A stretch of DNA of 64,000 nt from a bacterium (GTDB lineage Bacteria; Armatimonadota; UBA5829), in NCBI GenBank assembly GCA_021371935.1, contig JAJFVF010000009.1, positions 193,803 to 257,802 on the forward strand, written 5' to 3'. A model generated the notes under the pieces. That model was not told the origin of the DNA. It did no database searches and was given only the letters and a program-made list of their open reading frames with translations. The position numbers were made by a program, and so were the translations under genes. Of the stretch, positions 4,206 to 13,890 are shown piece by piece (position 1 is the stretch's first letter; the number at the start of each line of letters is the position of its first letter).

Positions 4206-4217
4206 ATGTAATAAATA

Positions 4218-4448
4218 TCACTTAACTACATACATAACTATTGCGCTCAACACCATAAAACTTATAGCAGCCCACTTGGTGAGTTCTTCAAGTTTTTCTT
4301 CCATTCCCGGCTTTCCATGAAATGCAGATTCGGTCTTACCACCGATCGTGCCGCTCAGACCCTCGCTTTTTGTTGCCTGAGACATTACAATAGCTATAAG
4401 CGCGACAGCGCTGATTACTTGCAGAGCGATAAATATACCTTTCAACAT
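4218..4448 (-). CDS. secG: Protein-export membrane protein SecG
   Basis: 76 residues with two hydrophobic helices: IFIALQVISAVALIAIVMSQ at the N-terminus and AISFMVLSAIVMYVV at the end. Between them is the family's glycine-rich, Ser/Thr-rich loop (SEGLSGTIGG). SecG is the small accessory subunit of the SecYEG translocon in the inner membrane and aids SecA-driven export. GAGGTGG lies 9-10 bases before the ATG. The gene stands alone, as secG commonly does, and ends at the strong terminator just downstream. Length and topology fit the family exactly. Confidence 0.92.
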   Translation of the reverse strand: MLKGIFIALQVISAVALIAIVMSQATKSEGLSGTIGGKTESAFHGKPGMEEKLEELTKWAAISFMVLSAIVMYVVK

Positions 4449-4674
4449 TATGTTGATCCACCTCGGTTTTGTGGGTCGGACAAAAAATCCTCACCTTAAC
4501 ATTCAAAATCATATCAGATTGGAACGCAATGGTCAAGAGGGGAAGTATTTTTGAGAACCTCTTGGGATCAAACATCGTGCGCAATGCTGCGACTGAAAAT
4601 ATTTGTCTGCATGACAATGAAATCCACAATACAGGCAGCATCATTAATGATGGAACTTCAACAGGAGAGCCTGG

Positions 4675-6054
4675 ATGATTGCTGATGAACAACTAATAGC
4701 CAGAGCACGGCGAGCGGACAGATCGGCTTTTGATGAATTGGTTCGTCGCCATTTTTCAATGGTCAGGCGCATCGCTCAAGGTTTTGCATCGATTGAAGAG
4801 GATGTCAATGACCTGGTCCAGGAAACATTCATCACAGCATATGATCGACTTCACCAACTGGATTCACCAGAGAAGTTTGTCGGTTGGCTTGCTGCAATTG
4901 CGCGCAATGAATGCCGGATGTGGCTGAGAAGACGTGTTTCACAGCCAATCATACTGGGGCTTGGTGAAGGAGATGAGGCAAACCATCCATATACGTCGGC
5001 TGCGGCCAGGCAGTCGCGTGAACTGATGCGGCGAAATGCAATCCGGGAGGCCATATTCGATGCCCTTGCGGTTCTCAATGATCAGCAGCAAAGCGTAGTC
5101 AGAATGCATTACCTCGAGGGATATGACTATCGCGAGACTGCCGAACTGTTGAGTGTTCCTATATCCGTGGTGCGGGGCCGGTTGGACCGCGCCAGAAATA
5201 CTCTGAGAAAGGAACTCAAGGATATGATGGTTTCAGCCAACTCATGGAAACTGCAAAAGAAAGACATGGATACGATACGGCTTGCGGCGTCGTTTGTTCG
5301 TTTGGATCCGCCAAGTCCGATAAGCGCATTTTATTTTACGGGTGAAGGTAGCATTGTCTGCACTGACGGCTGCAGACTGCTGCACTATGGTTCTTCATCT
5401 ATCGATATGACGCCAAATGTGCTGATGAATGCCGATCTGGCAAGAACACTTCGAGACAAGTATGCTGACGTGAATAAAGGCACGCTTTCATTTGGGGATG
5501 GTAAGGCCGGACTTCGGCTGTCCGATGGTGATGTGATAGAGACGCAATTACTTGACGGAGAATTTCCAAACTGGCGTCTCATAATTCCTCCAGAATGGCA
5601 ACTGAGGATTCGCGCAAAGTCAGGGCACTGGCTCCAAGCGCTCGATCTGCTGAAGAAACAAAGAGATGGTGGTCTTATCGAGACGGATCCGGCATGGCCA
5701 AGCAGGCTGCTGATGGTGTTGTGTCCAGAGGACAGGAGGATCGTTTTACGACAGGGACAGGATCCGGTAGATTCCCAAAGCCTCGCAAGAGAGATAAGCG
5801 TATGGTTTCCGGCGGATTATTCTGCAGGTGGACCGGATACGATAATCGCCTTCAATGCGGACTATTTGCAGGAGGCCATTGCAATTTTGGGACTTGAGAC
5901 TGAGCAGATTGTGGAGCTGTATATCAACCCACCCAATCCTATGCCCGGCCCAATATTGACGAAGCCTCTCGACTCAGAAGATGTATGGGTAATGACAATG
6001 CCTATGGCCGGGACAACTCATCGCTGTCCTGTGCCTGAGAAGACTGCAAGCTAG
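4675..6054 (+). CDS. ECF-type sigma factor fused to a DNA sliding-clamp-like C-terminal half
   Basis: 459 residues, more than twice an ordinary ECF sigma. Residues 5-90 are sigma region 2 (AFDELVRRHF, DLVQETFITAYDRL, GWLAAIARNECRMWLRRR). Residues 125-182 are region 4 (LNDQQQSVVRMHYLEGYDYRETA, then VVRGRLDRARNTLRKEL). From about residue 200 the sequence resembles beta-clamp (DnaN) domains 2 and 3. CTDGCRL (229-235) matches the clamp's ATDGHRL, LLDGEFPNWRLIIP (292-305) matches IDGxFPxYRxVIP, AFNADYLQEAIAIL (392-405) matches the FNxxYLxDAL strand-helix, and VWVMTMPM (437-444) matches the clamp's terminal YVVMPMR. Motif order and spacing follow DnaN. Clamp domain 1 is absent. No anti-sigma gene is adjacent. 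AGGAG precedes the ATG. The stop codon TAG coincides with the end of a dispersed repeat. The fused half may sense or bind DNA or replication partners; that is inference. Confidence 0.75.
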   Translation: MIADEQLIARARRADRSAFDELVRRHFSMVRRIAQGFASIEEDVNDLVQETFITAYDRLHQLDSPEKFVGWLAAIARNECRMWLRRRVSQPIILGLGEGDEANHPYTSAAARQSRELMRRNAIREAIFDALAVLNDQQQSVVRMHYLEGYDYRETAELLSVPISVVRGRLDRARNTLRKELKDMMVSANSWKLQKKDMDTIRLAASFVRLDPPSPISAFYFTGEGSIVCTDGCRLLHYGSSSIDMTPNVLMNADLARTLRDKYADVNKGTLSFGDGKAGLRLSDGDVIETQLLDGEFPNWRLIIPPEWQLRIRAKSGHWLQALDLLKKQRDGGLIETDPAWPSRLLMVLCPEDRRIVLRQGQDPVDSQSLAREISVWFPADYSAGGPDTIIAFNADYLQEAIAILGLETEQIVELYINPPNPMPGPILTKPLDSEDVWVMTMPMAGTTHRCPVPEKTAS

Positions 6055-6118
6055 TCCGGATTATGCGCTTACCGCATAATTCGAGTCTCCAAGAACATTA
6101 TTCACGTTTCTCGTGATA
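6053..6118 (+). repeat. Dispersed double-hairpin element, copy 1
   Basis: First of seven related intergenic elements. Hairpin A is GGATTATGCG (6058-6067) with CGCATAATTC (6073-6082). Hairpin B is degenerate here: ATTATTCACG pairs only partly with CGTGATAGG, so this copy looks decayed. The upstream gene's stop lies in CTAG at the element's left edge. Confidence 0.75.
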
Positions 6119-6135
6119 GGTATGCTGAAGTAAAA

Positions 6136-12434: not shown

Positions 12435-13814
12435 ATGGCTAGCACTTTTTTCGGTATCAGCGTAGCTCAATCAGGCCTGACTGCGCAAAAACGCGCGATG
12501 GAGGTCTTGTCGTATAACATCGCCAATGCAAACGACCCTACCTATAAACGTCAAAAGGTCGTTATGGTGGAAGGCCAGGTTCTGGCGACATCTCAGGAGG
12601 CCTCTTCCGTCGGCAGTTCCGGGATCGGAAGCGGCACACAGACCGGCGATGTCGAACGCGTTGTGGATGCGCTGGTCGAAAACCGACTCAGAGAAACAAC
12701 CACAAACAGCGCGGAATGGGACTATATGGCGAGCACTTTGAGTGGGTTGGAGTCGATAATGAACGAGCCAAGCGACTCCTCCCTGGAGACCGATCTCGAC
12801 ACGTTTTGGAATTCCTGGTCTACTGTCGCCAACAGCGCCGACGATACTTCCGTCAGGAGCGCACTGCTTGAAGATGCGACATCGTTGTGTGAAAGGATTC
12901 AGTACGTATACGGTCAGATGTCCGATATGGTCGACGACTTGAACCTGGAGGCGGAGGACATAGTCGATCAGATCAATCTGATGGCGAAGGAGATCGGAGC
13001 GCTGAACAACCAGATCGGCGCCATGTCATCCAATAATGAGCCGGTCAATGACCTTTTGAATACTCGTGACGCGCTGGTAAGCGAGTTGGCCGGATACGTA
13101 GATGTCACTGTCAGCGGCGAAGGCAGCGGAGACCTTGTGATATCAATCGCCGGCAGAGTGCTTGTGCAGGGTAGTGAAGTCAACACGCTTACCACCGTGA
13201 CCGGGTCGAATGGGGAATCGAGCATCGTTTGGGAAGACGGACTTGATCCGGTGGCAGTAACGGGTGGTGAACTTAAGGCCGTTACAGACTTGCGAGACAC
13301 TGTTATTCCTGGGTATATGTCGCAGTTGGATGACATAGCAGCCGAACTGGTTTCATCGGTCAATGCGCTGCATCAGACAGGACTCACTCTGGATGGCAGC
13401 GCAGGGGGAGATTTCTTTAAGGCCGGCACGACGGCGGCAAATATATGTCTTGACGAGAGTATTGTAGGCAAGCCGGATCTCATTGCAGCCAGTTCCAGCA
13501 CAAATTTCGGTAAAAGCAATGGTAACATCGCGCAGGCAATAGCTGATCTTAAGGATGCTGAAGGTACTTCGATCAATGAGATGTATGAAACGTTGGTCGG
13601 AAATATCGGCAGCGCATCGGCGGCAGCCCAGACTCAATCGGAAGCATACGCTTTGTCACTCGAACAGCTTACAACACAACAGCAGTCTGTATCGGGTGTT
13701 TCGCTTGATGAGGAGCTTACGAACATGATCAAGTTCCAGCAGGCATACAATGCCGCTTCCAGAGTGCTTACGGTTATGAATGATATGCTTGACGTGCTGA
13801 TGCAGACCGGCTAA
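12435..13814 (+). CDS. flgK: Flagellar hook-associated protein 1 FlgK
   Basis: 459 residues. The N-terminus (FFGISVAQSGLTAQKRAMEV, then YNIANANDPTYKRQ) carries the rod/hook/HAP helix. The middle contains LESIMNEPSDSSLETDLDTFWNSW, which is diagnostic of FlgK. The C-terminus ends LDEELTNMIKFQQAYNAASRVLTV followed by MLDVLMQTG, the expected terminal helix. FlgK forms the first hook-filament junction ring. It is somewhat shorter than the Salmonella protein (about 550) because the variable middle domain is reduced. Its TAA stop sits at the left edge of a repeat element. Confidence 0.95.
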   Translation: MASTFFGISVAQSGLTAQKRAMEVLSYNIANANDPTYKRQKVVMVEGQVLATSQEASSVGSSGIGSGTQTGDVERVVDALVENRLRETTTNSAEWDYMASTLSGLESIMNEPSDSSLETDLDTFWNSWSTVANSADDTSVRSALLEDATSLCERIQYVYGQMSDMVDDLNLEAEDIVDQINLMAKEIGALNNQIGAMSSNNEPVNDLLNTRDALVSELAGYVDVTVSGEGSGDLVISIAGRVLVQGSEVNTLTTVTGSNGESSIVWEDGLDPVAVTGGELKAVTDLRDTVIPGYMSQLDDIAAELVSSVNALHQTGLTLDGSAGGDFFKAGTTAANICLDESIVGKPDLIAASSSTNFGKSNGNIAQAIADLKDAEGTSINEMYETLVGNIGSASAAAQTQSEAYALSLEQLTTQQQSVSGVSLDEELTNMIKFQQAYNAASRVLTVMNDMLDVLMQTG

Positions 13815-13890
13815 CCCGGATTATGCGCTTACCGCATAATCCGGCTCTCTGAGAGCATTATTCATTTTTCTCGTGAATAATGCGCGCTAG
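13815..13890 (+). repeat. Dispersed double-hairpin element, copy 3 (between flgK and flgL)
   Basis: Starts directly after the flgK stop. CCGGATTATGCG pairs with CGCATAATCCGG (13816-13844) around CTTAC. A second hairpin pairs GCATTATTCA with TGAATAATGC (13855-13883). The right end is GCGCGCTAG. The element separates two genes that are normally co-transcribed. Confidence 0.85.

Follow-up and report, generated by a model that had tools for sequence, protein, structure and literature searches.

An ECF sigma factor joined to a predicted sliding-clamp domain pair in Armatimonadota

The stretch of Armatimonadota DNA analysed here (64,000 nucleotides; hereafter the window) carries on its forward strand a gene (4675..6054; a 459-residue open reading frame with an ATG start) whose product joins a complete ECF sigma factor to the equivalent of domains 2 and 3 of the bacterial beta sliding clamp, DnaN. 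A probable ribosome-binding site, AGGAGAG, can be read directly from the sequence just upstream (4663..4669, forward strand). Our preferred interpretation, held tentatively and with somewhat less than even confidence, is that of a one-component ECF sigma factor, in which captured clamp domains 2 and 3 that do not form a ring serve as the C-terminal regulatory domain. ECF sigma factors with regulatory extensions are a kind already known; what is new here is the use of a clamp domain pair as the extension. In line with the initial annotation, which knew of no such protein, we found no characterised sigma factor of this build in the open-access literature, and nothing relevant there on clamp-fused or Armatimonadetes ECFs. 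The fusion may turn genes on or off in response to the activity of the replication or repair machinery, and it makes testable whether the partner-binding half of the clamp can serve as a sensor.

Residues 1-185 form the sigma half, which comprises regions 2 and 4 without region 3. Both regions are recognized by Pfam, region 2 at 4738..4935 (forward strand, residues 22-87; PF04542, E = 1.3e-14) and region 4 at 5047..5205 (forward strand, residues 125-177; PF08281, E = 4.9e-11). Further, the NCBIfam sigma70-ECF model (TIGR02937) matches this half at 8e-28, and its best match in the PDB is E. coli sigma-E, over residues 2-182, which bears out the initial description of a complete ECF sigma factor. 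A short linker (5218..5241, forward strand, about residues 182-189), defined by the gap between the sigma match and the first aligned clamp residue, leads into the second half.

Evidence for the clamp half comes from several kinds of sequence comparison. A phmmer search of the PDB with the whole protein returned weak beta-clamp matches (best E = 0.0017), and with a two-sequence profile of the C-terminal part 49 of the 51 PDB matches were beta clamps (best E = 7.9e-7). The NCBIfam dnaN model (TIGR00663) matches the clamp half at 3e-7, under its curated score cut-off. Comparison with the two Pfam clamp profiles, the check proposed at the outset, succeeded only in part: PF02768 was sub-threshold (E = 0.18; 0.013 for the better of two homologues) and PF02767 was not reported for this half in the Pfam scan, and the Pfam clamp models alone would miss it; the positive calls came from the PDB profile, TIGR00663 and hhalign. 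In the last of these, the clamp half was matched to 22 Armatimonadota DnaN sequences with 99.4% probability (E = 2.4e-21, 229 columns), the match beginning at DnaN profile position 137, that is, in domain 2. A sigma-domain alignment, used as the negative control in the same profile–profile comparison, scored 0.07%, and a chance match of motifs was ruled out on this basis. The clamp assignment lies far beyond chance.

The domain 2 equivalent spans 5242..5592 (forward strand, about residues 190-306; E. coli DnaN about 123-250) and the domain 3 equivalent 5593..6012 (forward strand, about residues 307-446; E. coli DnaN about 251-366), both placed by hhalign, the fold match and the alignment. The latter carries an insertion of at least 10 residues around the ring-interface helix, and past the end of the clamp a C-terminal tail (6013..6051, forward strand, residues 447-459) is modelled with low confidence. 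Identity to DnaN is about 20%. Only the equivalent of E. coli residues 123-366 is present rather than three domains; the lack of domain 1, already noted in the initial annotation, is thus borne out by the profile, the fold and the relatives.

An AlphaFold model of residues 186-459 (pLDDT 84.8, pTM 0.82) overlays E. coli clamp residues 123-366 in the fold search and matches solved clamps with Z of 20-25 and an rmsd of 2.4-3.0 over about 235 residues; because viral DnaN rows were present in the alignment of the model, the fold and sequence matches are not independent, and we treat the model as a consistency check and not as independent proof. With that proviso, the expected clamp folds are predicted and no other family gave a better match; in particular, the SnoaL family, named at the outset as a possible competing assignment, is absent from Pfam scans of the fusion up to E = 10. 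The fold matches include solved clamps with griselimycin and with the phage protein Gp168 bound. A full-length AlphaFold model built from two sequences (pLDDT 46) was too poor to show contacts between the sigma and clamp halves and was set aside.

All four DnaN motif blocks quoted in the initial annotation are present. By alignment and conservation, three blocks fall in the putative partner pocket, namely VCTDGCRL (5356..5379, residues 228-235; E. coli V170-L177), FPNWRLIIP (5563..5589, residues 297-305; E. coli F241-P249) and TMPM (5995..6006, residues 441-444; E. coli V361-M364), with FNADY (5851..5865, residues 393-397; E. coli F319-Y323) at the pocket edge, all on the forward strand. For the comparison of residues, the fusion from the genome carrying the window (G000) and its intact orthologue from a second genome (G055, described below) were placed in an alignment with E. 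coli DnaN and 45 further clamps, giving 32 DnaN columns with at least 80% conservation, which were sorted into pocket, interface and channel following general knowledge of the E. coli clamp. Both fusions keep the residue class in 14 of the 16 strongly conserved columns of the clamp-binding-motif pocket, compared with 10 of 16 for the other conserved columns, a retention that is unremarkable alone because the pocket residues are also the best-conserved residues of clamps. Retained in both are T172, D173, R176, F241, P242, P249, N320, Y323, M362, P363 and M364 (E. coli numbering), together with class-conservative residues at L155, L177, V247 and V360; the differences are the replacement of V360 by M or A, that of H175 by C in G000, and the loss of R152 in G000. 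Four of these positions (P242, V247, M362 and P363, corresponding to P298, I303, M442 and P443 in the fusion) are among the residues mutated in a study of the E. coli pocket (PMC7261172). At the level of residues, the partner-binding pocket of DnaN is thus largely kept in the fusion.

The ring interface and the DNA channel have fared differently: none of the four conserved columns assigned to the interface (R269 and the E. coli E300 position) or to the channel (R152 and P196) is kept by both fusions. R269 is changed in both, I272/L273 are changed in G000, and a loop of about 4 residues, within which K198 falls, is deleted. We infer that ring closure through a domain 1–domain 3 interface would not be available to this protein. 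A largely kept pocket combined with changes at key interface and channel positions argues for a sensor that binds proteins or peptides more than for a tether that encircles DNA. The functional options initially offered (a tether to replication, a sensor of DNA ends or damage, or a ligand-binding use of the clamp fold) are thereby refined, in favour of protein or peptide sensing, rather than proven.

The fusion gene stands by itself at its locus. Upstream lies a divergent secG, named from its translation (about 4217-4448, reverse strand), and downstream a convergent PEP-CTERM gene followed by flagellar genes, with a terminator-like hairpin between the fusion and the PEP-CTERM gene. As first described, none of the neighbouring genes codes for an anti-sigma factor, and none adjoins the fusion at the G055 locus either. 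Immediately past the gene, at about 6055-6120 of the window, there is a degenerate copy of a dispersed repeat of ~75 bases, consisting of two adjoining hairpins, CCCGGATTATGCG...CGCATAATCCGGG and GCATTATTCACG...CGTGAATAATGC, with CTAG/CTAA-like flanking ends. This REP- or MITE-like element has at least 40 copies in G000 (for example at about 13810-13876 of the window), and Rfam gave no match within the window. Three other ECF genes have copies within 1 kb, a weak enrichment (P about 0.03, computed with guessed lengths for some contigs).

In the reviewed ECFs that are extended at the N- or the C-terminus, it is typically the extension that acts in place of the anti-sigma factor (PMC8999054), and control of the present sigma factor by its clamp half would likewise be internal. 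Under the preferred reading as a one-component regulator, the clamp half would dock proteins that carry the clamp-binding motif: DNA polymerases, proteins of mismatch or translesion repair, or foreign binders of the clamp. The presence or absence of a docked partner might alter the packing of the clamp half on sigma regions 2 and 4, and this could either switch sigma activity or recruit RNA polymerase to that partner. The fusion would thus couple a small regulon to the state of replication or repair, standing in for an anti-sigma factor.

Three other functional readings deserve weight to differing degrees. The strongest, although we regard it as rather unlikely, is that of a purely internal regulatory domain, with the clamp fold packing on sigma regions 2 and 4 and answering a small molecule or proteolysis while the pocket persists as a structural relic. 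The ECF41 sigma factors with a SnoaL extension do behave in this way, their extension inhibiting through a linker contact (PMC8999054), but an unused surface pocket should drift faster, whereas the equivalents of D173, R176, P242, Y323, M362, P363 and M364 are identical in both fusions. It is improbable, though conceivable, that the half-clamp acts as a decoy, mimicking a common target such that phage clamp binders or natural products of the griselimycin type would occupy the pocket and trigger a sigma response. The griselimycin- and Gp168-bound structures show that clamps are targeted in this manner, and another ECF of the same genome has a PheRS-alpha-like core, also a mimic of a housekeeping enzyme; the decoy itself, however, is purely inferential, and no resistance or defence gene was noticed beside the fusion in a reading of the locus not aimed at such genes.

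Equally hard to favour is a DNA-tethering activator, which we consider quite improbable: the clamp half would enter a ring, either with cellular DnaN or as a six-domain ring of three subunits, and tether the sigma factor and RNA polymerase, as a covalent version of gp55-gp45 late transcription in phage T4. PCNA and gp45 do have two clamp domains per chain, and for the T4 clamp gp45 a role as an activator that tethers RNA polymerase is proven (PMC7892883, PMC9690074). Yet the R269, I272/L273, K198, P196 and R152 positions are not kept, there are the loop deletion near K198 and the insertion by the interface helix, and the domain 1 that would meet domain 3 of an adjoining subunit is absent; ring-based tethering is disfavoured because the interface is changed.

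The fusion is rare, with two intact copies found among 291 genomes of the phylum (G000 and G055), and G001-G003 gave no match to the fusion; the scan of genome contigs used two short peptide patterns and picks up close relatives only. G055 is a more distant groundwater Armatimonadetes MAG, whose orthologue is 38% identical over the full length, and no other sigma domain in that genome comes close to the orthologue as a match to the sigma half of G000 (163 bits, the next being 93). In phylogenetic trees the sigma halves of the two fusions pair with 100/99 support and the clamp halves with 100/100, and therefore the simplest account is a single fusion event retained in both lineages, through descent or transfer. 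In the clamp tree the pair branches off, on a long stem, outside every DnaN protein sampled. Since the genome also has its own complete dnaN of normal length (366 residues) elsewhere, the fused copy would have been free to specialise. In the congener G004, a pseudogene remnant occupies the same locus (L047, 1486-1611, reverse strand): part of sigma region 2 (window 4886-4946) is joined directly to the end of the clamp (window 5987-6044) by the deletion of roughly 1 kb, and the same PEP-CTERM and flgF neighbours follow, so the gene was once present there and has since been mostly deleted. The survey of fused homologues proposed at the outset thus yielded one further intact fusion and this remnant.

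A chimeric assembly or a decaying, non-functional gene is very improbable indeed: although G004 lost most of the gene and only the two intact copies are known from the 291 genomes, the fusion recurs, conserved in both halves, in the independent genome G055, the G004 remnant preserves the two ends in unchanged order next to the same PEP-CTERM and flagellar genes, and the open frame in the window is intact with similar base composition in its two halves; the orthologue and the remnant together rule out an assembly chimera. Long-frame dnaN matches in other genomes (L037, L045 and L055) were considered as hidden fusions and rejected, their extra upstream residues not being sigma-like by eye. Beyond the cellular genomes, no relative of the fusion was found in viral contigs, where a scan with the single dnaN of the genome gave no match and a DnaN alignment was used instead; phages gave weak matches only, to Thermus phage processivity factors, and plasmids gave no full-length match.

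At least 8 other ECF sigmas of G000 have open frames of 430-700 residues and thus carry extensions of about 200-500 residues. Among these extensions are a PheRS-alpha-like core and HEAT repeats, so captured C-terminal domains are a local theme. One is a fusion of an ECF sigma to a PheRS-alpha-like core (L006; G000:C12, about 256000-257300, reverse strand; PF01409, E = 4e-21), which may sense phenylalanine or the charging of tRNA. An extension of this type recurs in three further genomes of the family (L190 in G004; G003:C309:1058-1762; G005:C30:29557-30252), at 49-69% identity and in open frames of 430-432 residues, and for L190 the full sigma–PheRS build was confirmed (PF01409, E = 6e-24). 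Others in G000 include ECFs with HEAT repeats and a DUF2087 end (L004), with a weak BNR/sialidase-type match (L002) and with a probably membrane-spanning extension (L010). The real dnaN of the genome is divergent from another ECF gene about 160 bases away (G000:C13, about 139800-143050; L003, L058), whose long C-terminal extension goes unrecognized by Pfam. In G055, an ECF sigma is fused to a WD40 beta-propeller (L211; G055:C312:5910-6419 and downstream), and in the sigma tree it groups with the clamp-fused sigmas with modest support (80/79). The clamp fusion points to a more general tendency among Armatimonadota to equip sigma factors with housekeeping domains that they have captured. It is possible, although doubtful at present, that members of the phylum capture pieces of core machinery (the sliding clamp, PheRS alpha) as on-board sensors mimicking a target, such that the sigma factor would read the occupancy of the replisome partner pocket, or an attack by phage proteins or antibiotics, without an anti-sigma factor.

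Placed among known systems, the fusion shares with extended ECFs a core of sigma 2 and sigma 4, the lack of an adjacent anti-sigma gene and an additional C-terminal domain expected to control activity (PMC8999054), and differs in that its extension consists of two domains of a replication clamp; the text of that review does not contain the word "clamp". Where ECF41-type sigmas have a SnoaL-like C-terminal domain, here it is the clamp. With DnaN it shares domains 2 and 3, the fold and most of the clamp-binding-motif pocket, but it departs from DnaN in lacking domain 1, in the changed ring interface and channel, in its insertions and low identity, and in lying away from the genome's own dnaN, joined to a sigma factor. 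The PheRS-alpha fusion of the same genome follows the same plan of an ECF sigma with a captured housekeeping domain, and differs in the domain captured (a class II tRNA synthetase core) and in its branch of the sigma tree. The nearest functional precedent is the late transcription of phage T4 (gp55-gp33-gp45), where a sigma-type factor and a sliding clamp likewise work together. There, a DNA-encircling clamp, gp45, and a sigma-like factor, gp55, are distinct proteins that a short clamp-binding motif links (PMC7892883, PMC9690074); in contrast, the half-clamp of the fusion is covalently part of the sigma factor and is probably unable to close a ring.
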